The translations under genes were made by a program, and so were the position numbers. A stretch of 64,000 nucleotides of DNA from the NCBI RefSeq assembly GCF_024713945.1, contig NC_134684.1, positions 2,771,001-2,835,000 of the forward strand, in the 5' to 3' direction. Positions 1-29,618 of the stretch are shown here, one piece after another (within the stretch, counting starts at the first letter, position 1; each line of letters opens with the position of its first letter). Below the pieces are notes generated by a model. That model was not told where the DNA came from and did no database searches. It was given only the letters and a program-made list of their open reading frames with translations. Source of the stretch: Dermatophagoides farinae. Its lineage: Eukaryota > Arthropoda > Arachnida > Sarcoptiformes > Pyroglyphidae.

Positions 1-1811
1 TATAAACCACTGAGCATAGTTATTATGACGAATAAAATTGTCAATGCTGTAGCCATTAATTGGACATTCTTTGCATATATAACACCCCATACTTGTGCAT
101 ATGATTGCATTAATACTGTCAATAACCATACGAATAGAATTTGATGTGCAAATCGATTCCAGTTAATCATATAGTTATCCAGTATATAATATTCCGATAG
201 TACATAGCCAATAAATGCTTGATTGAATGCAAAAAAGGTCAATTCAATCAAATGAATAATTTGGAATGCCCAGAAAAAAGTACCCAAACTATACCATCCT
301 ATTAATGTGATGAAATTACCTTTTAATAAATATTTCAGAAACAATACAATACTTACCATTTTTATGTTCATTACAGAATACTGAACTCAATTCAACGACC
401 AATATGGAACTTAGACCAATCGAAACTAATGTCGTTGTAATGGCCATTGCTAGCTGATAAATCATAAATGATCCATCAATCAGTGATTCTTTTAATTTTT
501 CATTACAAGTATGATTAAATTGTTCCATCGAAACAATGTGACATCCACGTGATTTGATCATATCTTCATAGCTGGTATAACAGACAAAACCAACACAGAT
601 TCCTTGTAGTAATAAATAACAAAGAAAATATCGAATATCGGCAACAAAAATTAATCGAAATAATCGTTGTAATTGTATAAGTAGATCGTCGAAAGAAAAT
701 AATTTCGGATAACGTGCAATTCCATTTGGATTCCATTCATAGTTTTGATCATTGAAATTTTCTTCCAATTTAAAGCGACTAGCTTCTTCTTGTAGAGTAT
801 TGTCAGCTAAATCACGTACCAATTGGTCATCAATACCTTTGAAAAAATATTTATTTATCTTTTTTTGGATATTATCAAATTGAAAAAAAACTTACCATTA
901 TTTGCAATCCTTAAATATTCTTCGATTGGAGAGCGATCATCAGCTATTCGATGTTGTTGTACACATTCTAAACGGAATGACATTTCAGCCGGTGGACCAG
1001 AGAAGATACAAACGCCACCTTTGGCCAATATATAAAGATTATCAAATAGACTTAAGATTTCTGAACTAGGAGCATGTATCGAAACAATGATAGTTATTGG
1101 ATTATGATTGGCCAATTTTCGAAGGCATCCCATAACAACCAAAGCAGCTTCACTATCTAAACCGGTAGTTGGTTCATCCACAAATAAAAACGGCGGTTTT
1201 GATTCATAAGCCATTAGTTCTTGTGCAATGGCTACACGACGTTGTTGGCCACCCGAACATTGAATGAAAGGTGTACGTAATACTTTTGGATCGAGCATCA
1301 ATTCTTCGATAGTTGATTCGATATGAGCTTTAGCTTTATGACGATTTTCATATAGATTTTTAAAACGAAATGAATAATAAAGAATTTCTTCAACCGTAAA
1401 CCGGCCAAATATGATTTCATGAACAGATTGAGGAACAAAACTAACTAATGGTACACGGCTATTTCCTGGTATAATCATTCTATTTAAATAGATTCCAGAA
1501 TCTGAGGAAATGTTTTGAGTGGATACATTTCCAGTAAGACATTTAATCAATGATGTTTTGCCCGCACCAGATGGACCAAGTAAAGCATTCATACTATGAT
1601 GACGAACAAAACCATTCAAACGTCTTAAGATAACTTTACGTTGTTTAATTGGTAGCCAACTGCGATCATTTTCAAAATTCCATTCATCAACATCATATTG
1701 AAGATTTTTCCACAATAATGATACCGGTTGATGAATCGATCTGAATGATGAATGTTGTATTTGATTATCATTTTGTTGTCGATGATCATCATCATCTAGA
1801 CCATTGGCCAT
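1..1811 (-). CDS. ABCG (White-type) half-transporter, partial at window edge
   Basis: Three exons are visible: 896-1811, 357-836 and 1-319 (running off the window), with GT..AG introns of 59 bp (837-895) and 37 bp (320-356), both in phase 1. Exon 1 encodes the nucleotide-binding domain: Walker A GPSGAGKTS, ABC signature CSGGQQRR, Walker B LFVDEP followed by TTGLD, and the switch His in SIHAP. Exons 2 and 3 encode the start of the ABC2-type membrane domain, with hydrophobic segments and an ITMLSG-like helix at the edge. The NBD-before-TMD order and TTGLDS motif are typical of subfamily G, which exports lipids or xenobiotics at membranes; the substrate cannot be told. The start is taken as MANGLDD at 1811; an in-frame upstream Met at 1844 is possible. 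All visible catalytic motifs look intact. A piece of exon 1 (about 1333-1425) recurs as a relic near 6800 and 26670. Confidence 0.9.
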
Positions 1812-1844
1812 TATTTTATAAAATAAAATATGATTTAAACACAC

Positions 1845-3405
1845 AATATATTTTCAGCACAACAAGCAATGATGAATAAGCAGATTTTTTTTTTAGAAGA
1901 AAAACCACCAACAATTTGACAACCTTTTTATATTTCTGTTCATCCATTTTTATAATACCGTCGAACTTTTTTTCTCTATCTATTTTCACAGCATTTGTTT
2001 GTTTGTTTCTTTGTTGTTATTATTGGGTATTTCAATTTTTAATTATCCATGCATGCATGCATATCTTTGACACTGTTGTACATGTGTATGTGTGTGTGTG
2101 TATGTTTATGTGTTGTTTTTGTTGTTTACCATCATTAATAGCACTTAAGCAAGGTTAATGGTTGGTATCATGTCGTTTCATATTTCGTTTATCGTTATTT
2201 TGTATATCCATGGAATGTATCATCTCCCTTTCTTTAATTAAACTCCGCCTTAAATCGGAAATAAATGTTTATTTATTTTTTTTTTGCCAGTTCGACTGTA
2301 TTTTATATAGATATTATCATTCTCAAACCCTTGTACTTTCTATTTCTGTTCGGTAAAAATCTTGATGGCATGATAATCAGGTTTTTTTTTTGGTCCCCCT
2401 ATTCAAATTCACTTTTACTGTATTTGAATGTTTATGATAAAGAGAATTTCTAGAAAAAAAAATTGATCCTACCAAACAATTACTCCATCTCAACCACCTG
2501 GTGTGTGTTCAAAATAGTATTCCAAATGAAAAAAAATTCTATCAAAAACTAAGTTATTGTCCTTTTTTTTCAAGAGAAAAAATAAATTTATTCGACAAAC
2601 CTAATCATCATGACAATAATCATGTTATCATGAGAAAAACATGTTTATTTTTCACATGTTGTTGTTGTTGTTGTTGTTGTTTTGTTATTTACTTATTTTT
2701 TTTATTTTTTATTTATTCTTTTTTTTTTGTTCATCCAAAAGCAATAAGTACAAAATGTTTTACGTCCATCCATTAATGATTATGATAATGTGAAATCAAA
2801 TCGATTAATCGAAATTAAATTTAAAGAAAATAACTATGAAATCATCTGTGAAATCCAAAACGTATTGATGACGTATAAATTATCCTTCAATCAGTCATTT
2901 TAGTTAAATCAATAATAACGAAATTATCAAGAATGAACAACAAGAAGTGCAATTTAATACTTAAGAAATATACATGATGAAATCAATAAAAAATAAATGT
3001 TTACGAATTCATCAGTATTATTTCAATGAGATAAGCAACAGTTAACTATAGTTGTTTGTGTGAAGTATTTTGAAATAATAATGCTCATCATCATATAATT
3101 TAATTAAATTAAACAGGATGGGAAGAGATTTAAACAATATCGAAAAAAAAAATCAAAAACAATGTTCGTGAGAATGTACGATTATTTGTTGTCAAAAAAA
3201 TCAATTGATGTTGGATAATGAAAACAACATATCCGACAAAAATACAATATAAACACGAAACAACTAGTATCGAAACCAAATGCAAAGCGAAAGAAGAAGA
3301 AATAAAATCAAAGAGAAGGGAACCTGTTTGAAAATGAATAGGGGCTAATCGATACGACCAGTTCTAAAGTACGAAATGGCTACTACTTAGAGCAATTTGA
3401 ATAAA
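1845..3405. other. Intergenic, no gene seen
   Basis: AT-rich spacer between the 5' end of the ABCG gene and the 3' side of lipase A. It holds a short (TG)n tract near 2087-2103, a (TTG)n tract near 2658-2681 and many T or A homopolymers. Open frames here are short and low complexity. Sequence similar to the 3' flanks of the other two lipases begins at about 3405. Confidence 0.6.
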
Positions 3406-3493
3406 TTTGAATTAATAGGTACATTGAAAAAAAAAGAAAGTGTGAATGATTTGGTGGCAATCTCTTCAACAGTTCTTTTTGATTATTGCTTAT

Positions 3494-3499
3494 TTTATT
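3494..3499 (-). promoter_or_regulatory. Putative poly(A) signal of lipase A
   Basis: AATAAA on the minus strand about 180 nt past the lipase A stop. The same hexamer is kept at the matching place in the two paralogs (7059-7064 and 26910-26915), which supports a role in 3' end formation. This is position plus motif only. Confidence 0.4.
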
Positions 3500-3679
3500 C
3501 ATTTCTTGATTATGAATGCATTCAATGGAAATGAGCGATTCAAATGGCTATATCCAATTCATGAACATGAATTTTAACGAATAAAATCCTATTCAAAAAT
3601 CTATTAGTTAAATTTTTCAATTTTAACCAATCATTGTGCTTTGGTGGTGATTATTCTCGATCATCATCCCACATAGGTT

Positions 3680-5524
3680 TCATTTATGATTAGTTTGATT
3701 TCTTGAGTTGGATGATCTGGATCCGGTAAAATGTGTGATATCTTTGCCTGTTATTTCCACAGGTCCATTGCGGCTTTTCAGCACTGATGATAGTGAACGG
3801 CGTTTACTATTGATTTTTTTCCATTTTAAAATTAAAAAAAAAATAAATTCTTATTACAAATTAATCAATAAAACAAACCTTTCAGTATAGCCATTCATAT
3901 AGTTAAATTGAATCTCTTCGACAATAATTCGACTATTAGTTGAACTAGAAAGACCACTATTTATACCTGGAATCGCGGTAATAGCTTTATCAATACTAAC
4001 TGCAACCACATTCGGTAACACCTTATTTGTCAATGTTGCATCTACTGATTCGATGCGACCAAGTGATTTTTTGGATTTATGTAAATAGGTATATTCTTTG
4101 TTTGGTTCAAATTTTCTATCCATTAGAATATTTTCGCTGAAATCGTTTCGTAGACTGCCAGTAATGTTCATGGATAATCGACCATCAAAAGTAGGAAAGG
4201 AATTTCCGGTTCGAAGCTTATTTTTAAAAATTAATAATTAATTCAACACCAAGGATAATCTAAATATTAAAACTATACCTTGATCTGATAGAAAAAATAT
4301 GATAAAGGTTGGTCTTTCTGTGTATCAATATAATAGATGATCGGTTCTCGCCATTCTTTTGATAATTTCTGTTTTTGCCACCAATCAAACCATCTACCAA
4401 AGGGTTTACAATCATCTGAACCATCACGACAGGTACCACATCGGCCAGCTTCAAATGCTTCATAGTTTTTGCATCGATAACCCATTGATTCGAAATCATC
4501 ATCTTTCAATTCATCATATTTCATTAATTTATAAGTGACAAATAGATGCGAGCAAGCTACTGTTTCTTGTCCTCCTTCATATACTCCTTTTGTCAATGGT
4601 GCCGCAATTCCGGAAACGGAATCGCAACCGGGCTGTGTTTCACCCCCATTGGGAAAAAAATTATAGTGACCAGACGGGGTGAGTGTTCCTAAGCCATCGA
4701 GTAAGTTCTTACCACCATTTGTATGGATGGATACAACTAATTTTGCATCATTCGGAACTAGACGACCGTCTTCGCTAACATCATTGAATGCTGGACCAGC
4801 AGGATCAAGACCAAGTATCAATCGTACTTTCGGATTACGTAAACGTTTGCCAGCAAAACCACTAATTTGTCCTCCTAAACTATGTCCCATAATTGTATAA
4901 TGATCATTGTTTGTATTGTAAACGTTGTTCATTTTTTCAATAAATTTTGCAATTATAGCACCAACCAATCTGGTATTGGATGATGACTGTAAATAGTTCA
5001 CATGAATTGAACCACCACGCCAATCGACAGCTATAACATTCAATGAACATGGTTGTGCTCGTAGAATAAGATCTTTTAAATCTCCCATCCACTTGAATTG
5101 AGTATAATAATCTACGTAACCATGTATTATAAATATTGTACGTTTTTTTGGATCATAGTTGATATTATGCAAATCTCTTTCAGTTACGTTATATGGTAAA
5201 ATAGTTGGATTATAACGATCACGACAGGAGAATACATGGAATTTCGTATCAATATTTTCGGGAGAATCAGGATAATGACCAAATACATTTGCCGTTTGAA
5301 TGTCGTTGCTCAATTGAGCTTTTTTAAAACAACCAAATTCACCATAACAAACTTCATCTATGATTTGAATTTTCAAAAAAAAAATATGTAACTTAACATT
5401 GTATACAATTAATGATGATTTTTAAATAAAAAAAAATTATACCTTTATTTTGACCATTGCATTCAATATATGTTATAGAAATAATGAAGATTACAGATGA
5501 AATACAAATGAATGATTTATACAT
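3680..5524 (-). CDS. Secreted pancreatic-lipase-family lipase, copy A
   Basis: Four exons: 5443-5524, 4279-5357, 3879-4216 and 3680-3806; the exon lengths sum to 542 codons. Exon 1 is a signal peptide (MYKSFICISS then a hydrophobic core). Exon 2 is the alpha/beta-hydrolase domain, opening with the EVCYGEFGCF motif like the pancreatic lipase N-terminus. Its catalytic triad is recognisable: Ser in GHSLGGQ, Asp in GLDPAGPAF, His in ACSHLF. Exons 3 and 4 give a C-terminal region of about 150 residues in the place of the PLAT domain. The family hydrolyses triglycerides or phospholipids outside the cell; digestive use in the gut is inferred. Compared with copies B and C it lacks five codons in exon 3. 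It also carries a net 2-base deletion near 3705-3715 that changes the last residues and stops the protein early. The catalytic part is intact. Confidence 0.88.
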
Positions 5525-5545
5525 TTTTAATCCAATTCGTTAACT

Positions 5546-5752
5546 ATATATTCAAATTGTTCAGATGGTAAACAATAAAACGAAAAAATAAACGCTAAAA
5601 TAGAAAGAAAAAAAAAGATGAAATTAAAATTCATGTTCACACACACACAAGTGTTTATATAATAATTTTATATAAATTAATCATCAATAATCAATAATGA
5701 TTGATTTATGATCGTTGATGTTGAAATGATTTTACCATTGATTTTTAAATTT
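5546..5752. other. About 200 bp present only upstream of lipase A
   Basis: The 5' flanks of copies A and B match next to the start codon (to about 5545 in A) and again from about 5753 to 5890 in A. The intervening ~200 bp has no counterpart in B or C, where the two matching parts abut near 9172. This is either an insertion in A or a deletion before B and C arose. It contains a short (CA)n run and no recognisable element. Confidence 0.5.
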
Positions 5753-5899
5753 AGTACAATTATCAAAAAAAAAAAAAAAATTAGAATTTCAAAACACATA
5801 AACAGACAGAAAAAAAATTGATTGAATAAAAAAATCATTCGATTCGAATTAATAGACACACATAGATACACAAAATGTATGTAACAACCACTACGTTAA

Positions 5900-6785
5900 A
5901 AATATCGATGGCATTCAATGATGACTGATTATAAAATTTAAAAAAAAAAAAAATTTTGGTATTTTTTTCCGATTGGACTTTGAATTTACTCATAAACCTG
6001 AATGAATTGTCTATATATCTTTGTTTCAGTTCACTAGCACGTATATATGGGCAATCCATGTGATTATCAATGTCTGTCAATAGAATTTTTGTTGATTAAT
6101 TTTTTTTTTCAAATTTTCATTCAATATAATCAATGATTAGTAGGAAAAAAATAACCAATCATTACCATCATCATCATTATCATTATGATGGTAAAAAAAA
6201 CATGATAATTATAAATTATTTGATTTGATTGATAAATAATAAACTTTGTGATTGGCCTTGAATTTTTTTTTTGTCAAACATATGACCAAAAAAACAACAA
6301 CAACAACAACAACCAAATTCTTTTTATCTTTTGGCATGTGTCATTTTTGTGAGAATATGTTATTCAAAAAAAATTTTTTTGTAAAAACATTTAAGAATAA
6401 TATATAAATCTTCTTAACCTCAACATACAAAAATAATCAATTCAACAAGATTTGTATTGCAAAATCACTTGAATAGCGTGATGGTTTTTGTTTCTTCCCA
6501 TATCGCCGCCAGTATTTCATTTGAAATTTCATTTTTTTTCTCTTGTGTACAATGAAATAATTATGAAAACAAACAAACAAACAAACAAAAAAAACGATAA
6601 ACACTTGTTGCTTGTAAAAAAAAATGGAATAATTCCAATGGAATATTGGCCCCTCTCTCTTTTTTTTTATCGGTTATGAATACAATATATCCGAGGGCAT
6701 TGTATGTGAGATATTATAAAATCACTAATATCACATGTCAATGTGCTATGTTGAGAGGCGAAAAAAAAATGAAAAAAAAAATTCG
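5900..6785. other. Intergenic, no gene seen
   Basis: AT-rich spacer with homopolymer runs, an (ACA)n tract near 6292-6311 and an (AAAC)n tract near 6562-6590. The only longer minus-strand frame (5835-6080) matches nothing I recognise and lacks convincing splice context. Confidence 0.5.
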
Positions 6786-6788
6786 AAC

Positions 6789-6972
6789 AAAGCTTTATGA
6801 CGATTTTTATGTAGATTTTTTTTTTTAAATGAAATTCATAATAATTTCTTCCATAGTAAATTGGCCAAATATAATTTCACATAAACATCATGAAATGCTG
6901 GACCAGTTGGATCAAAACCAAATGTTAATCATGCATTGACCAATCTGGTATTAGATGATGACAATCAAAATA
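6789..6972 (-). pseudogene. Chimeric relic: ABCG exon fragment joined to two lipase fragments (copy 1)
   Basis: Three blocks lie end to end. 6789-6884 resembles the ABCG gene at about 1333-1425 (shared GCTTTATGACGATTTT, then TAAATTGGCCAAATATAATT against TAAACCGGCCAAATATGATT). 6885-6932 resembles lipase exon 2 at about 4778-4828 (AATGCTGGACCAG). 6937-6965 resembles lipase exon 2 at about 4964-4995 (CCAATCTGGTATTAGATGATG). All keep the parental strand, but the roughly 130 bp that separate the two lipase pieces in the gene are missing. No open frame survives. It lies just past the lipase B 3' end and was copied with that gene to 26658. Confidence 0.75.
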
Positions 6973-7260
6973 ATTTGAATTGAGTGATACATTAAAAAAA
7001 GGTGTGAATAATTTAGTGACAATCTCTTGGACAGTTTTTTTTTTTTTTGATTATCACTTTTATTCATTTCTTGATTATGAATGGATTCAATAAAAATGAA
7101 CGATTAAAATGGCTATATCCAATTCGTGAACATAAATTTTAACGAATAAAATCTTAGACTTTTTTCTAAATTACTTTTAAAAATCCTATTCAAAAATCTA
7201 ATAATTAAGTTTTTCAATGTTAACCAAACATTGTGCTTCGAGGGTGATTATCTTCGATCA

Positions 7261-9137
7261 TCATCCCACATGTGTTTCATTTATGATTAGTTTAATTTCT
7301 ATATTGTTAGATGATTTAAATTTGGTGAAATGTGTGACATCTTTGTTTGTTACTTGCACGGGTCCATTTCGGCTTCTCAACACTGATGACAGTGAACGGC
7401 GTTTACTATTGATTTTTTTCATTTTAAAATTAAAAAAAAATAAATTCTTATTACCAATCAAATAAATAAATAAAACAAACCTTTCAGAATAGCTATTCAA
7501 GTAGTTGAATTGAATCTCTTCGACAACAATTTGACTTTTGATTAAACTGGGGAGATCAGCACTGGTCACTTCACTATTTACCTCAGGAATCGCGGTGATA
7601 GCTTTATCCATACTAACTGCAACCACCTTCGGTAACACCTTATTTGTCAATGTTAAATCTGCGGATTCGATACGACCAAGCGATTTTCTAGATTTATATA
7701 GATAGGTGTATTCTTTGTTTGGTTCAAATTTTTTATCCATTAGAATATTTTCGCTGAAATCGTTTCGTAGACTACCAGTAATGTTCATGGATAATCGACC
7801 ATCAAAAGTAGGGAAGGAACTTCCGGTTCGAAGCTTATTTTTAAAAATTAATAATTAATCCAACACCAAGGATAATCTAAATATTGAAACTATACCTTGA
7901 TCTGATAGAAAAAATATGATAAAGGTTGGTCTTTCTGCGTATCAATATAATAGATGATCGGTTCTCGCCATTCTTTTGATAATTTTTGTGTTTGCCACCA
8001 ATCAAACCATCTACCAAAGGGTTTACAATCATCTGAACCTTCACGACAATTGCCACACTGACCAGCTTCAAATGCTTCATAGTTTTTGCAGCGATAACCC
8101 ATTGATTCGAAATCATCATCTTTCGATTCATTATATTTCATCAACTTATAAACGACGAATAGATGCGAGCAAGCTACTGTCATTTGAAATCCTTCATATG
8201 CACCTTTTGTCAATGGTGCAGCAATTCCGGAAACGAAATCGCAACCAGGCTGTGTTTCACCCCCATTGGGAAAAAAATTATAGTGACCAGACGGGTTGAG
8301 TGTACCTATGCCATCGAGGGCGTTCTTACCACCATTTGTATGGATAGATACAACTAATTTTGCATCATCCGGAACTAGACGACCGTCTTCGTTAACATCA
8401 TTGAATGCTGGACCAGCTGGATCAAGACCAAGTATCAATCGTGCTTTCGGATTACGTAAATGTTTGCCAGTAAAACCACTAATTTGTCCTCCTAAACTAT
8501 GTCCCATAATTGTATAATGATCATTGTCTGTCTTGTAAACATTGTTCATTTTTTCAATAAATTTTGCAATCATAGCGCCAACCAATCTGGTATTGGATGA
8601 TGACTGTAAATAGTCGATATGCATTGAACCACCACGCCAATCGACAGCTATAACATTCAATGAACATGGCTTTGCTTGTAGAATAAGATCTTTTAAATCT
8701 CCCATCCACTTGAATTGAGTATAATAATCAACATAACCATGTATTATAAATATTGTGCGTTTTTTTGGATCATAGTTCAAATTATGAAAATCTTTTTCAG
8801 TTACGTTATAAGGCAAAATAGTTGGATTATAACGATCATGACAGGAAAATACATGGAATTTTGCATTAATTTTTTCGGGAGTATCAGGATAGTGACCAAA
8901 TACATTTTCCGCTTTAATGTCCATGCTCAATTGAGCTTTTTTAAAACAACCAAATTCACCATAACAAACTTCATCTATGATTTGAATTTTCAAAAAAAAA
9001 ATGGAATTCAACATCGTATACAATTAATGATGATTTTTAAATAAAAAAATTATACCTTTATTTTGACCATTGCATTCAATATATGTTATGGAAATAATGA
9101 AGATTATAGATGAAATACAAATGAATGATTTATACAT
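7261..9137 (-). CDS. Secreted pancreatic-lipase-family lipase, copy B
   Basis: Exons 9056-9137, 7896-8974, 7481-7833 and 7261-7405, in the same phases as copies A and C, give 552 residues. The order is signal peptide, alpha/beta-hydrolase domain with GHSLGGQ, GLDPAGPAF and ACSHLF, then a C-terminal domain ending in NETHVG before the stop. Introns are about 75 to 80 bp; the last one happens to be open in frame, so exons 3 and 4 read through on paper, but the GT and AG borders match the paralogs. The EVCYGEFGCF start of the mature chain is as in pancreatic lipases. It is almost identical to copy C, 19.85 kb away, and clearly more distant from copy A. No damage is seen. Extracellular lipid hydrolysis is expected from the family; the substrate is unknown. 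Confidence 0.9.
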
Positions 9138-9654
9138 TTTTAATCCAATTCGTTAACTATAGTACAATTATTATATAACAACAAAAAAAATTGGATGAAT
9201 AAAAAAAATCAATCGATTCGAATAAATTTATTATAATAGACACATACACAATGTATGTAACAACAGCTGCAGAATTTCAAAACAATAACATTTAATAAAA
9301 TTCATCATCATCATATAAAAACATTACCGAAATATGAACATTAACATGGAATATGTAAATCTTCACGATGAATATTGAATATTTTGAAGCTTCAAGATGT
9401 TAATTTACAGATTGTGAAAACAATTTAAATTTTTTTTGTTGAATTTATTTCAATTCTTCTAGGTGTGCAAAGTTTTTTTTGTCAACAGTGAAGAAACAGA
9501 AAATTTTTTGTGAAAAATCTTTTTCAGATTTGCTGTATTTATATAGATTTCAATGAAATCAGTATCCATTATGTATAAGTAGACCTACAACCTAACCACT
9601 AATTGTCAAGCTACCACCGAAAAAAACCGTTTCAAATTTTAAGTTAATCAACAG

Positions 9655-9790
9655 AAATGGATTTGAATCGCTTCATCTGGATAATTCGACAAATTCCTAG
9701 TCGCCATAATAACAAAAATGTGAACTGACATCCAAGTATTTGTATGCTTTGATCGATGACAATCGTAAATCCACTTCTGAAAGAATTAAA
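9655..9790 (-). pseudogene. Decayed exon of an unidentified gene next to lipase B
   Basis: On the minus strand a good splice acceptor (TTAATTCTTTCAG at about 9780-9792) precedes a frame reading SGFTIVID. After a one-base shift the adjoining frame continues with a plausible coding stretch (TNTWMSVHIFVIMATRN in the other copy, 29483-29608). GFTIVID recalls the start of CRAL-TRIO domains in Trio/PLEKHG4-type exchange factors, but the piece is too short to name. It is shared by both arms of the duplication; only this copy keeps the acceptor. Confidence 0.35.
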
Positions 9791-16742: not shown

Positions 16743-17670
16743 GTAAGTCCTATTGATTGATTGATTGATTGATTCTGTTCTTTTTGATTTCATGTATTTT
16801 TTTTTATCTTGCTATTATTATTTTGTTGCCTCTTTTATCTATGTACATTATGTAATTTTGGACTACTATTTTTGAAAATATAAACCAATTATCGTTATTT
16901 TTATTCTTTCCATCTATTCGTTTCATTCATCATCAAAGAAAAAACAACAAAAAAAACATCAATGGATAAAATAGTACAAGAAGTAGGCAAAACATTGTAC
17001 ATTTTATGCTTTACAAAACAATGCAAATCTTGTTTTATGTATGATTCATACATTCTTGAGTCATCATAACTAATTAAGAGAAAAATGTGATGCTAATAAT
17101 TGTGTGTGGGCATGTTATTACGTTGTGACAATTTTATCTTGATCTTGGACATAACATATTTGACTTGACAACGTAAAAAAAGAAAGATCCTTGACCATTT
17201 TTTACAATCTATATGGCTCCCTTTTAAGTATTTTATTATTTTTTTTTTTGCATCTCCGTATACAATCATGATATCATCATGGTGACCAAAAATTGTCCAT
17301 CAATATTTCAATGTTAAAGATAATGTAGAGAAAAATTTTTTTTTTTAAATAAATTGAAAACGGAAACCGAAAAAAAAATTTGGCATTTATGTTCAGTTAA
17401 TAATAGGCCAATGTCCATCGTCAATCAAAATATTATTCAATTTGATTATCAATAACTTTGTATTGAATTCTAATCAATTCTTTTTTTTTAAAATTTTTTT
17501 TACATGGTCAATCGAAAATTGAACAATCATATCATTGACCTTTGATATAATTTATTATTTCAATGGCCATCAAAGCTAATTAACGGAAATGAAACTTATT
17601 ACATTGATTTCACAAAAAAAATATTAATCTAAATCCAATGTAATTTATTGAGACATTAATTCATCATTAG

Positions 17671-20600
17671 CTGCTACAATGGAATCATCATCATCTATGA
17701 CAACAGCATCAGAAATTGTTGAAATATTGGAATCACCTTTAATTTATAATCATGATAATAATCAGGCCACAGAACCACAATGGCGTTATTCATTGATTTG
17801 GACCATTGTACTTTGTATTGCCTATTCAATTGTATTTATAATGGGATTAATTGGCAATAGTGCTGTACTATTGGTAATCAATATGATGCGTCATAATACA
17901 CCGAATTCAAATCAAATGATGGCCAACAATAATAATAATGTATTCAATTATTTCATCTGTAATTTGGCATTGGCCGATTTGTTGGTCATTTTATTTTGTT
18001 TAATACCAAATCTGCTTGGCAATATATTGACAAGTAAGTTTTTTTTTTAGTTGTTATTGTTTATCATTGATTTATTGGCTATTTTTATTTTCAATGATAA
18101 TTGATTTTTAACAATGTTTTGATAATTTTATTGATTTGATTTATTGTCAAATATTGACGTTATTCAATGAATATTTTGGTAATTGATTTGAAAATCATTG
18201 AAAGGTTAATGGAAAAACGAATAAAAACAAACAACCGGAATCTGATGAATGAATTTTATTATAATCATCGAACGAAAACAATTCATCATTATATAAATTG
18301 ATTGAATTTGTGAATTTCTTGTAGTTCAACAAAATAATCGATAAAACTGATAAATGAGATAGAAAATAAAATGAAAAAATTACTAGTAAAAAATTTTCTC
18401 ATTCGATTCTTTTTTTTTCCCAAGAAGTTTTTATAGCTAAAATGTATTTGTAAGAATAAAAAAAAAATATCAACCAATTCCAAGTCCTACGCATAGAAAA
18501 AATTAATTCCAAATGAATGAATGATTGAAAATGATGTTGACATTAATGATGAAATCATTAGCAAGTAAAACGACCAAGCATTAAAAATTTTGTTGTAAAC
18601 AATTTTTTTTTTGACAAATGGACGTTTTTTTTCGTTCAAAAAATATTTGTTGACAAATTTTGTTTGCCATATGCCAATATGTTATTAACTAATCAGTATT
18701 TATGCTAGTTCACATGGGCGCTACGGGTTTTTTTACATTTTCATCATATCGAAGATGATATTGAGTTAACAGATTGTCACCATCATTCACTAATGGACGA
18801 CAATGTTTTAACAAAAATTGATAATTTTGAACAATTTTCAATGTTGTCTTTATCATTTGTAATAATAAACAATTTTTACGTTGAACATTAATTAAAAATC
18901 AAATTTTGAATTTTTCTTTTTTTTAGCCTGGATTCTAGGACGTCTTGTATGTAAAGCCGTTCCATTTCTTCAAGGTGTTGCCGTCACTGCATCCATATAT
19001 ACTTTGGTTGCCATTTCGATCGATCGGTATTTTTATTTTTTTATATCGATAAAAATTGATTATTATAAAATCGCAATATTGATTTTTCTTTTCATTATTT
19101 TTTTTTCTACAAATCGATTTTGACAGTTTCTATGGAATTTATTATCCATTTAATAATGGATTCAGCCCATTAGTTCGCCGATATGTTATCGTATTCATAT
19201 GGCTATTCAGCTTTTCATTGTCAAGTCCGTGGTTAATATTTTTCGATGTTTATACCGTCGATAATCAAGTGGTAAGTGTGATGAGATAAAAAAAAATTCA
19301 ATTGATTTGAATGAATTTGATACAATAGATGGCAGCATCGTTCTATAATTTTTTTTTGTTTATTTATTTTTCCTGATTTTTATAGATGTGTCATGAAAAT
19401 TGGCCTGAAGAATGGATTTCAAATTTTTATTTTATATTCATTAATTTTGGTCTGCAATATTTATTACCTGTATCCGTTACAATCTTTTTCTATTTATTAT
19501 TATATGTAAAAATTTCTCGACGTCAATTACCATTGATCATTAGTAATGGTGATGGCCAAACAAATGCTATAATGAATGATGAACATTCAAGTATCAATAA
19601 AATGAATAGTCGTATTGTGGAAAAATCCAGGCTTAAAGTGCTTAAAATGTTGATCACAATTGTATCCGTATTTGTACTCAGTTGGCTACCATTATATGTT
19701 ATTTTTTGTTTTATTAAATTCACACAAATTGATGAAAATTCATTCAAAGGTATGATTCATTCTATATATCATTCATTTTATTGTTCAATATCAAATCTGT
19801 TTGTTTCAAAATTAACAAATAAAGGACTTATTATAATTGGCTTAACACCATTGGCACAATGGCTAGGAGCAACAAATTCCTGTATAAATCCAATACTTTA
19901 TTTTTTCTTCAATCCAAAATTTCGTACCTATCTACGGAAAACTATAACGAAAAATTGTTCAAGAAATGAAAATCTAAATCAATTCAATATGAATTATCAA
20001 CATAAAAATGGTACAAAATTTACGATCAATTGTAATGGAAAAAATTCATATCATTCACGTTTAGCTACAGCTAGCAATACATTGAATCAACCACCGACGC
20101 CAACAACATTTGAATTGAATAATTCATCATATAAACTGCAAACATCACCGAATATTTCTAATTTTTTGAAATTATCACCAACATTGGGAATTACGAAAAA
20201 GAATAATGATGATAATAAGAATAATCAGAATCAAAATAGCCAAAAAACTTATGAAAATACAATGTTGTTATCACCAAAAAAGATGGCCATTTCAAACCAA
20301 ACTAATGATAGTCAACCGGTATCGAATATAGTGTCTGAATCAATTCATAATTTTGATCATCAGATGATTAATTTGGATTGTGGCACCGTTTTAACATCGC
20401 CAACAGCAATGAATGAAACAACAACATATCCAACACTGAGAATGACCAATTCATTACCATTGACAATCAGTAATGTTGGTGATGGTCTTTCATCATCATC
20501 TTCTTCATCAGCAACATCATCATCATCATCATCAGCATTGTTCAATCATTCATCATCATCATCATCATCAAAACCATTATCATCAGCAATAACGACAATC

Positions 20601-21116
20601 ACCAAAAATGTATGTACACAACAACAATCAAATAACTATGGGAACATTCATAAAAAGTTCAACATTATTAATAAAAATGATGTAAATTGTAATCAGAAAA
20701 CAAAAACTTTTGTAACAGAAAATGTTCAAACAAATAACAATATCCTCAATAATCATAATGATGATAATGGAAAAAAATTGACAACTGTTGTTGGATGTAA
20801 TGAATTTCCCTTGAATCATTTAAAAAAATTTCATTGTTATCATAATAATGATAATGATAATGATGATGATGATGATGATGATCAACATTTTCAACAGAAT
20901 AATTATCATAATAGGATTATAACATTGAATAATAATTGTTATCATCGTCCAAATAATGGTAAACAAGCAACAAATATTAATATTAATAATAACGATGATG
21001 ATGATGATGATAATTCCTTATTATTTCATCGATATGATCAAGGCTATTCGAAGATAATTTCCAATTGTTTTATCAAAATATCGACAACATCATTGAATCT
21101 TGAAACATCTGTTTAA
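17671..21116 (+). CDS. Rhodopsin-family neuropeptide receptor (GPCR), SIFamide/NPFF-like
   Basis: Coding exons 17671-18033, 18927-19026, 19127-19271 and 19386-21116 have matching phases. The first Met within this block is 17679; acceptor CATTAG at 17670 suggests upstream exons. Class A landmarks: TM1 GLIGNSAVLL, TM2 NLALADLL, a Cys in the extracellular loop (RLVCKAVPF), SIDRF in place of DRY, TM6 VLSWLPLYV, TM7 NSCINPILYFFFNPKFR. The APLAQWLG-type loop and DRF recall SIFamide/NPFF receptors, but the ligand is not certain. A 75 bp stretch at 19750-19824 begins with GTATGA and ends AAATAAAG. It is in frame without stops and adds about 25 residues in extracellular loop 3, so it is probably an intron. 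The C-terminal tail of about 400 residues is Asn/Ser/Asp-rich low complexity, much longer than usual. Confidence 0.85.
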
Positions 21117-25900: not shown

Positions 25901-26655
25901 CATTATCACTGTGTGATTTGTATTGATTCCAACATGTGTTTTTTTTTTCTATTGAATTCAATTTTCATTACATTTCATATTTTTCATTTTCTATTCAACA
26001 TTTTCTTTACTTAATTTTTTTTTTTTATTTCATTCATTTTACGCCTAATGACATGCTGCGCTAATGCCCCAATGCATATCAAATTATTCGCATCCGCATC
26101 GATCTATTTTGTTCGGTTTCCATATGTGTGTGTGTGTGTGTGTGTGTGTTGTGATGATGTTTTGAATATTTAATCATGGATGGAAAAAAAACAAACGAAA
26201 GAAAAAACCACATTTAAAAGTGAATTAAAACAAACAGGAAAAAAATCGATTTCAATTTCAATGAATGAACGATACGATACGATAAACATGGCCACACGAA
26301 TTTTGACAATCTGATTTATGATGGATATCATCATCAATTCAAGTGTCACATGGTGAAAAAAAAAATTTTTTCGTCAATCATTTTGTTTGCAACATTCAAA
26401 GATTAAGATTTCCACCAAATGAACATTGTAATCAAATTCTTCTTCATATATACTTTGGCTATTATGGACTGGCAAAATCATTAAACATTGGAAATTGATA
26501 ATTAAAAACAAACAAAACAAAACAAAAACCGCTAAATCGAAAAAAACGTGTTTGACGAATTTTCTTCTTTCTTGGTTCCTGATTTCCATTTCATTTTATT
26601 TCTTATTTATCATACACACATACAAACACAATACATCTATCTGATAATCACATGA
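21120..26655. other. Intergenic, microsatellite-rich, no gene seen
   Basis: The first part is presumably the GPCR 3' UTR. Beyond it lies AT-rich DNA with (GA)n at 22878-22907, (CA)n near 23684-23701, (GT)n at about 24530-24547, 25006-25030 and 26125-26149, and several (GAT)n/(ATC)n runs. No frame has splice context or a recognisable motif. Confidence 0.55.
22878..22907. repeat. (GA)n microsatellite
   Basis: About 15 GA units, bordered by an A-rich run, in intergenic DNA downstream of the GPCR. Confidence 0.9.
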
Positions 26656-26657
26656 TG

Positions 26658-26823
26658 ACGTTATGACGATTTTTTTTAAAACGAAATTCATAATAAAGAA
26701 TTTCTTCCATAGTAAACTGGCCAAATATAATTTCACATAAACATCATGAAATGCTGGACCAGCTGGATCAAAACCAAATGTTAATCATGCATCAACCAAT
26801 CTGGTATTAGATGATGACAATCA
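26658..26823 (-). pseudogene. Chimeric relic: ABCG exon fragment joined to two lipase fragments (copy 2)
   Basis: This is the same three-block structure as at 6789-6972: an ABCG exon 1 piece (26658-26740, here closer to the parent, with AATAAAGAATTTCTTCC kept), then AATGCTGGACCAGCTGGATC and CCAATCTGGTATTAGATGAT from lipase exon 2. This copy retains bases the other lost (AAAACGAAATTCATAATAAAG), so the two relics have diverged separately since duplication. Non-coding. Confidence 0.75.
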
Positions 26824-27111
26824 AAATAATTTGAATTGAGTGATACATTAAAAAAAGGTGTGAATAATTTAGTGACAATCTCTTGGACAGTTTTTTTTTG
26901 ATTATCACTTTTATTCATTTCTTGATTATGAATGGATTGAATAAAAATGAACGATTAAAATGGCTATATCCAATTCGTGAACATAAATTTTAACGAATAA
27001 AATCTTAGACTTTTTTCTAAATTACTTTTAAAAATCCTATTCAAAAATCTATTAGTTAAATTTTTCAATGTTAACCAAACATTGTGCTTCGAGGGTGATT
27101 ATCTTCGATCA

Positions 27112-28988
27112 TCATCCCACATGTGTTTCATTTATGATTAGTTTAATTTCTATATTGTTAAATGATTTCAATTTGGGGAAATGTGTGACATCTTTGTTTG
27201 TTACTTGCACGGGTCCATTTCGGCTTCTCAACACTGATGACAGTGAATGGCGTTTACTATTGATTTTTTTCATTTTAAAATTAAAAAAAAACAAATTCTT
27301 ATTACCAATCAAATAAATAAATAAAACAAACCTTTCAGAATAGCCATTCAAGTAGTTGAATTGTATCTCTTCGACAATAATTCGACTTTTGATTAAACTG
27401 GGGAGATCAGCACTGGTCACTTCACTATTTAACTCAGGAATCGCGGTGATAGCTTTATCCATACTAACTGCAACAACTTTCGGTAACACCTTATTTGTCA
27501 ATGTTACATATGCTGATTCGATACGACCAAGCGATTTTCTAGATTTATATAAATAGGTGTATTCTTTGTTTGGTTCAAATTTTCTATCCATTAGAATATT
27601 TTCGCTGAAATCGTTTCGTAGACTACCAGTAATGTTCATGGATAATCGACCATCAAAAGTAGGAAAGGGACTTCCGGTTCGAAGCTTATTTTTAAAAATT
27701 AATAATTAATTCAACACCAAGGATAATCTAAATATCGAAACTATACCTTGATCTGATAGAAAAAATATGATAAAGGTTGGTCTTTCTGCGTATCGATATA
27801 ATAGATGATCGGTTCACGCCATTCTTTTGATAAACTTTGTGTTTGCCACCAATCAAACCATCTACCAAAGGGTTTACAATCATCTGAACCTTCACGACAA
27901 TTGCCACAATGACCAGCTTTAAATGCTTCATAGTTTTTGCAGCGATAACCCATTGATTCGAAATCATCATCTTTCGATTCATCATATTTCATCAACTTAT
28001 AAGCGACGAATAGATGCGAGCAAGCTACTGTCATCTGAAATCCTTCATATGCACCTTTTGTCAATGGTGCAGCAATTCCAGAAACGGGATTACAACCGGG
28101 CTGTGTTTCACCCCCATTGGGAAAAAAATTGTAATGACCAGACGGGTTTAGTGTGCCGAAGCCATCGAGTACGTTCTTACCACCATTTGTATGGATAGAT
28201 ACAACTAATTTTGCATCATCCGGAACTAGACGACCGTCTTCGCTAACATCATTGAATGCTGGACCAGCAGGATCAAGACCAAGTATCAATCGTGCTTTCG
28301 GATTACGTAAATGTTTGCCAGTAAAACCACTAATTTGTCCTCCTAAACTATGTCCCATAATTGTATAATGATCATTGTCTGTCTTGTAAACATTGTTCAT
28401 TTTTTCAATAAATTTTGCAATCATAGCGCCAACCAATCTGGTATTGGATGATGACTGTAAATAGTCGACATTCATTGAACCACCACGCCAATCGACAACT
28501 ATAACATTCAATGAACATGGCTTTGCTCGTAGAATAAGATCTTTTAAATCTCCCATCCACTTGAATTGAGTATAATAATCAACATAACCATGTATTATAA
28601 ATATTGTGCGTTTTTTTGGATCATAGTTCAAATTATGAAAATCTTTTTCAGTTACGTTATAAGGCAAAATAGTTGGATTATAACGATCATGACAGGAAAA
28701 TACATGGAATTTTGCATTAATTTTTTCGGGAGTATCAGGATAGTGACCAAATACATTTTCCGCTTTAATGTCCATGCTCAATTGAGCTTTTTTAAAACAA
28801 CCAAATTCACCATAACAAACTTCATCTATGATTTGAATTTTCAAAAAAAAATTGAATTCAACATCGTATACAATTAATGATGATTTTTAAATAAAAAAAA
28901 TTATACCTTTATTTTGACCATTGCATTCAATATATGTTATGGAAATAATGAAGATTATAGATGAAATACAAGTGAATGATTTATACAT
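27112..28988 (-). CDS. Secreted pancreatic-lipase-family lipase, copy C
   Basis: Exons 28907-28988, 27747-28825, 27332-27684 and 27112-27256 give 552 residues, the same length and phases as copy B. Signal peptide MYKSFTCISS; catalytic Ser in GHSLGGQ, Asp in GLDPAGPAF, His in ACSHLF; C-terminal region ending NETHVG. Differences from copy B are scattered and mostly conservative (for example IVVDWRGG against IAVDWRGG, NPVSGIAA against DFVSGIAA, QSLSKEW against QKLSKEW). No catalytic residue is affected and no stop or frameshift is seen. Upstream sequence is shared with B to about 29608, so regulation may be similar. Function as for the other copies: extracellular lipid ester hydrolysis inferred from family. 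Confidence 0.9.
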
Positions 28989-29618
28989 TTTTAATCCAAT
29001 TCGTTAACTATAGTACAATTATTATAAAACAACAAAAAAAAGTTGGATCAATAAAAAAATCAATCGATTCGAATTAATTAATTATAATAGACACATACAC
29101 AATGTATGTAACAACAGCTGAAGAATTTCAAAACAATAACATTAAAAAAATTCATCATCATAAAAACATTACCGAAATATGAACATTAACATGGAATATG
29201 TAAATCTTCACGATGAATATTGAATATTTTGAAGCTTCAAGATGGTAATTTGTAGATTGTGAAAACAATTTAAATTTTTTTTTGTTGAATTTATTTTAAT
29301 TCTTCTAGGATTGCAGAACAGAAAATTGATTGTGAAAAATCTTTTTCAGATTTGCTATATTTATATAGATTTAAATGCAATCAGGATCCATTATAACAAC
29401 GTTAAACATTAGTTATACCTACATTCTAACCACTAAATGTCAAGCTACCACCGAAAAAAAACCGTTTCAAATTTCAAGTCAATCAACAAAAAAACATTTG
29501 AATCGCTTCATCTGGATAATTCGACAAATTCCTAGTCGCCATAATAACAAAAATATGAACTGACATCCAAGTATTTGTATGTTTTGATCGATGACAATCG
29601 TAAATCCAATTCACCAAA

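Follow-up and report, generated by a model that had tools for sequence, protein, structure and literature searches.

Organization of the ABCG-Lipase Locus

The window, i.e., the complete stretch of 64,000 nucleotides analyzed here, derives from contig NC_134684.1 of Dermatophagoides farinae (assembly GCF_024713945.1, positions 2,771,001 to 2,835,000 of the forward strand) and contains an ABCG transporter gene and three lipase copies, which are listed in Table 1 together with the features discussed below. In keeping with this origin, or with a very close relative, the genome carries a gene for a group 7 allergen, a mite protein family, that includes a stretch agreeing with Der f 7 at 164 of 165 residues. 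The protein encoded by the ABCG gene belongs to the Pfam family ABC_tran, and CDR1 and ABCG2 are at the top of its solved relatives. The lipase belongs to the Pfam family Lipase and is of the pancreatic-lipase type, an identification made with the PF00151 model on lipase copy 1. Since two older lipase copies are located upstream of the window (about -6690 to -5641 and -4752 to -3219), the locus represents an old array of lipases that encloses an ABCG gene. Further upstream (-9744 to -7636), two clusters of local repeats are present with units that are 74-95% identical. A rhodopsin-type receptor gene (17652-21113) lies between lipase copies 2 and 3; its similarity to 7tm_1 is above the cut-off in 19386-21113 and below it in 17652-18047, and its C-terminal region is long and of low complexity.

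Table 1. Features of the ABCG-lipase locus, with positions in the window.
Feature	Position	Strand	Description
Open frame holding ABCG exon 1, donor of block A	858..1853	-	PF00005, E 5.3e-16
Lipase copy 1 unit; source of blocks B and C, or sister of that source	3393..5888	-	Pfam Lipase PF00151, E 2.2e-64
Block A, ABCG exon 1 fragment	6791..6887	-	Donor 1332-1425; 77/90 aligned bases identical to the adjacent ABCG gene
Block B, lipase exon 2 fragment	6884..6937	-	Donor 4777-4830 or paralogs 8394-8447, 28245-28298
Block C, lipase exon 2 fragment	6939..6962	-	Donor 4964-4987; 23/24 identical to each of copies 1-3
Lipase copy 2 unit (3′ flank, gene, 5′ flank)	6962..9264	-	Homologous to 3393-5888
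Second patchwork, same joins	26661..26818	-	At the left boundary of the copy 3 block
Lipase copy 3 block	26661..29612	-	Duplicate of about 6795-9777

A Patchwork of ABCG and Lipase Fragments Borders Lipase Copy 2

The segment from 6791 to 6962 consists of three abutting blocks, a piece of ABCG exon 1 followed by two separate pieces of lipase exon 2. In a BLAST comparison of 6700-7450 with the window, 6791-6879 matched 1332-1419 (E 3.7e-15), 6884-6930 matched 4777-4823 (E 4.2e-8), 6884-6937 matched 8394-8447 in lipase copy 2 (E 2.9e-10), and 6939-6983 matched 4964-5010 (E 2.2e-5). The right end of block A is 6879, or 6887 if the AACA shared with block B is counted. Block B is identical to lipase copies 1, 2, and 3 at 43, 45, and 44 of its 54 bases, respectively. 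The safe part of block C is 6939-6962, where 23 of 24 bases are also identical to 8581-8604, and a weak tail reaches to 6983 (donor to 5010). All matches are plus/plus and the donor positions (1332, 4777, 4964) follow each other in the parental order.

The best local scores of 6789-6883, 6884-6938, and 6939-6972 against both strands of 1-5600 were 80, 54, and 43, respectively, and none of 500 dinucleotide-preserving shuffles per block reached the real score, the best shuffles scoring 43, 33, and 34. BLAST and shuffles thus bear out the initial annotation, which had described three ordered blocks from the two genes in parental orientation, and the donor interval that it considered dropped between the two lipase pieces corresponds to about 133 bases absent from the patchwork. 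A single continuous homolog that would account for all three blocks was not found when the genome was searched with the patchwork fragment and with either donor exon.

To the right, the patchwork is followed by the 3′ flank and then by the whole gene of lipase copy 2. The homology between copies 1 and 2 starts at 6962 (corresponding to 3393) or 6972 (corresponding to 3404), within about 10 bases of the end of block C. The patchwork therefore adjoins the junction of a duplicated segment, with its donors at most 6 kb away.

The Patchwork Is Present in Two Copies

A 44-base pattern spanning the join of blocks A and B had two matches in the window with 0 mismatches, the second one at 26719-26762. 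This second patchwork belongs to the block carrying lipase copy 3, and 6818-9777 and 26670-29612 share 94.9% identity over 2980 aligned columns. The block common to copies 2 and 3 starts at 6795/26661, which agrees with the proposal that the patchwork sits at the edge of a block that was duplicated later. In a local alignment (6797-7010 versus 26655-26866), the two patchworks were identical at 200 of 208 bases. In a global alignment, 13 of 144 bases differed in the first 150-base window, a higher divergence that is due in part to the poorly aligning left end. Neither patchwork derives from the present form of the other, because the second keeps some ABCG donor bases that were lost in the first and vice versa. 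An assembly error was considered as the origin of the joins and is unlikely, since identical joins occur at two places in diverged sequence.

A search of the genome (62.4 Mb, 22 contigs) with 6780-7010 identified at least five places, namely the fragment itself, the other patchwork (about 26670), the donor in the ABCG gene, lipase copy 2, and the older upstream lipase. These counts are lower bounds, and lipase copies 1 and 3 were not among the matches listed. A third patchwork was not found in this search, to which the same lower bound applies, and the two copies are located about 20 kb apart within one lipase array. The initial annotation had also considered capture by a mobile element, i.e., that a Helitron or Pack-type element took up and moved pieces of both genes. 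Such an element would account for two copies with identical joins and for a copied block whose left boundary coincides, to within about 4 bases, with that of the ABCG piece. However, at the present lower bound only the two local copies were detected, the copied block includes an entire lipase together with its introns and flanks, the ends of the block in the first copy are not paired by inverted repeats, and by eye no target-site duplication is evident in the flanks. We therefore regard capture as very improbable.

Donors of the Three Blocks

The genome search with the ABCG exon yielded 19 matches, comprising the donor, the two patchworks, and 16 others with 67-81% identity (14 of the 16 with 67-74%). 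With the patchwork fragment as query, no ABCG gene besides the neighboring one was matched, with counts again being lower bounds. By this measure the neighboring ABCG gene is the donor of block A, because the fragment matched no other ABCG gene. Among themselves, lipase copies 1-3 show 1-2 differences over the 54 positions of block B and none over the 24 of block C and are too similar there for the donor to be told among them. The older upstream lipase matches block B as well as copies 1-3 do (44 of 54 bases identical, 10 mismatches) and, in the alignment inspected by eye, matches block C more poorly; the LipA row (blocks B and C) and the LipB row (block C) were out of register and were left out of this donor comparison.

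Age of the Patchwork

The patchworks differ from their donors at 17 of 153 bases (copy at 26661) and at 23 of 168 bases (copy at 6791), i.e., by 11-14%, when block A, block B (versus lipase copy 2), and block C are summed. In the outer flanks of lipase copies 1 and 2, 28 of 242 bases (3′ flank) and 14 of 81 bases (distal 5′ flank) differ, which amounts to 12-17%; in 150-base windows the divergence was 20% and 10% in the 3′ flank and 3-15% in the gene core. Within the core, only 2 of 60 bases differ in an intron and 6 of 158 in 5386-5545, which covers intron and probably the first exon. This divergence of 3-4%, compared to 12-17% in the outer flanks, suggests that the gene core of copies 1 and 2 was later homogenized by gene conversion. 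The flanks of copies 2 and 3 differ at 4 of 272 (3′) and 33 of 588 bases (5′), and judged by these values the split of copies 2 and 3 is younger than the duplication of copies 1 and 2. The patchwork was probably formed along with the latter duplication, because its donor divergence resembles that of the outer flanks; the dating relies on 153-168 bases, over which one event and several close ones are inseparable.

In two alignment columns, located in blocks B and C, respectively, the patchwork agrees with the older upstream lipase, from which copies 1-3 differ, a weak hint that the patchwork may be older than the split of copies 1-3.

Template Switching or Deletion as Possible Origin of the Joins

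At most two or three extra bases are present at the joins of the blocks. Blocks A and B are joined on the AACA common to both donors, and a match of at least 4 bases occurred in about 2% of 20,000 random ABCG/lipase pairings, which represents the chance expectation for this join. Blocks B and C are joined on AATCGTGC / AATCATAGC, a pair of short, imperfect direct repeats in lipase copies 2 and 3 that was recognized by eye and without a chance expectation; the pair is weaker in lipase copy 1. At the third join, between lipase exon 2 and the 3′ flank, the donor strings showed no clear microhomology.

The positions of the joins also bear on an origin by reverse transcription of a lipase-ABCG transcript that was read through or aberrantly spliced. 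Both genes are encoded on the minus strand and their order, lipase before ABCG, would fit a read-through transcript. However, the blocks are exon-internal pieces joined inside exons, and the patchwork continues directly into the genomic 3′ flank of a lipase that contains introns, which makes this origin extremely improbable.

The reading that we favor, tentatively and just short of calling it probable, is that the patchwork represents the scar of template switching at the junction of the lipase duplication. During duplication of the lipase unit 3393-5888 beside the ABCG gene, the machinery of replication or repair would have changed template several times, copying first about 94 bases of ABCG exon 1 and then about 54 and about 24-35 bases of lipase exon 2, before returning to the lipase 3′ flank and copying the whole unit, which would have become the present lipase copy 2. 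The finished block consisting of patchwork and lipase would then have been copied once more, giving rise to the two copies about 20 kb apart. We assume that all switches took place in one event, which would have been driven by FoSTeS/MMBIR or by polymerase-theta end joining with templated insertions. Template switching is favored because one event with several switches needs the fewest steps. In addition, the ages fit when the divergence from the donors (17/153, 23/168) is set against that of the flanks (28/242, 14/81).

Comparable insertions have been described in other organisms. Human complex insertions with microhomology and inserts from nearby were read as the result of iterative template switching (PMC5120786). 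According to a review on rice, insertions of 10-1000 bases, often derived from several nearby places, were ascribed to break repair (PMC7407515). A literature search on D. farinae and template switching found no paper, and among the matches listed in searches on mite genomes, lipases, tandem copies, and gene conversion, no title referred to this locus.

The parental order and orientation of all blocks argue against template switching, which does not require them, whereas they are predicted by deletion. In a human series, 46% of the duplicated fragments were inverted (PMC6258378). It is quite possible, and in our estimate only slightly less likely than template switching, that a tandem duplicate of the ABCG-lipase region was free of selection and was reduced stepwise by a few deletions, part of them between short repeats, to three crumbs beside lipase copy 2. 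Deletion accounts for the wholly parental arrangement nearly as well as template switching does, and by eye the B/C join resembles a deletion between imperfect direct repeats. Local noncoding DNA does lose much, as about 250 bases around 5548-5800 are without a partner in copies 2 and 3. The two columns in blocks B and C that match the older upstream lipase against copies 1-3 hint at an older crumb, and because the block C column is included, we gave slightly more weight to stepwise deletion and less to template switching. However, both shared changes are transitions, which arise by chance more often than any other change, and gene conversion may have homogenized copies 1-3.

Stepwise deletion would furthermore require a minimum of two duplications plus three deletions, one of them longer than 3 kb, within the time corresponding to 12-17% flank divergence, and would have left only about 172 bases of about 3.7 kb (1332-5010). 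The rest of the ABCG gene and of the ABCG-lipase interval has left no remnant that was found in 5889-6790: with BLAST at E 1e-4, neither ABCG nor lipase sequence but only short matches elsewhere were detected in this segment of about 900 bases. In the genome, its matches elsewhere are 33-60 bases long, and the best local match nearby (best match only) is a simple repeat. With such short matches, the left side of a template-switching event is not reconstructed from 5889-6790. Taken together, template switching proposed in the initial annotation stands as the leading reading, but its accompanying statement that the pattern is not simple decay was too strong, because successive deletions in a duplicated ABCG-lipase unit would also give parental order and orientation.

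Edges of the Duplicated Blocks

On its left side, the block common to copies 2 and 3 (6795/26661) starts no more than about 4 bases away from the start of the ABCG piece (6791), a coincidence that calls for an explanation if the two duplications were independent. One explanation would be that this edge is a recurrent break site, which served as the start of the first lipase duplication (6791) and again in the later copying at 6795/26661. We consider this unlikely; if true, a template-switch scar would seed further duplications of the block it borders. An A-rich/T-rich inverted repeat extends across the edge in copy 2 (6761-6824), and it may be later than the break, because its T-run exceeds in length those of the donor and the second copy.

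When the other flanks were compared with -3000 to 5600, considering the best local match only, a simple repeat was obtained for the sequence that precedes the second patchwork on the left and for that on the right of lipase copy 2. Right of lipase copy 3 the best match was T-rich and was reached by 5 of 60 shuffles. The right ends of the copy 2 and copy 3 blocks are at 9777 and 29612, and copy 3 runs into a GAT repeat within about ten bases of its end, for which reason the copy 3 block may have been inserted at a simple repeat.

Functional Status and Significance

The patchwork shows no sign of function and appears to be dead DNA. No constraint is visible in the alignments, because the two patchworks (8/208 differences) diverge at least as much as the adjacent 3′ flank (4/272). 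The segment 6790-7300 contains a single TTTATT (AATAAA on the minus strand), located at 7059, and the patchwork is probably outside the lipase 2 mRNA, because it lies beyond this likely poly(A) signal. No Rfam family reached the gathering score in 1-30000 of the window.

The patchwork is real but ordinary in kind and most likely represents a known type of scar; it points neither to a new element nor to a new function. It provides a single germline case from an arthropod with a compact genome in which the growth of a lipase family by duplication leaves a readable junction containing pieces of the neighboring genes. It matters mainly as a marker, since the shared scar indicates that lipase copies 2 and 3 come from one block, and it could serve to date and polarize the lipase array in other mites.

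Among the known systems, Helitron or Pack-type capture also joins exon pieces of more than one gene, but for the patchwork only local copies about 20 kb apart were found and no inverted repeats that pair the block ends in the first copy. With a decayed tandem-duplicate pseudogene it has in common that fragments of adjacent genes lie in parental order within a local array, and the 8/208 differences between the patchworks are comparable to those seen in noncoding flanking sequence of copies 2 and 3, which range from 4/272 to 33/588. It differs from such a pseudogene in that no intermediate remnants were found and about 95% of the supposed 1332-5010 unit would be missing. Unlike duplication junctions with templated insertions, as produced by FoSTeS/MMBIR or polymerase-theta end joining, the patchwork is old and diverged, its pieces are all direct and in parental order, and it comes without an ancestral haplotype proving a single event. 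Like these junctions, it consists of short nearby pieces that abut at the junction of a duplicated segment, and at two of the three joins it has short shared sequence, the AACA match and the imperfect repeat seen by eye, which may correspond to the microhomology described in human complex insertions (PMC5120786).
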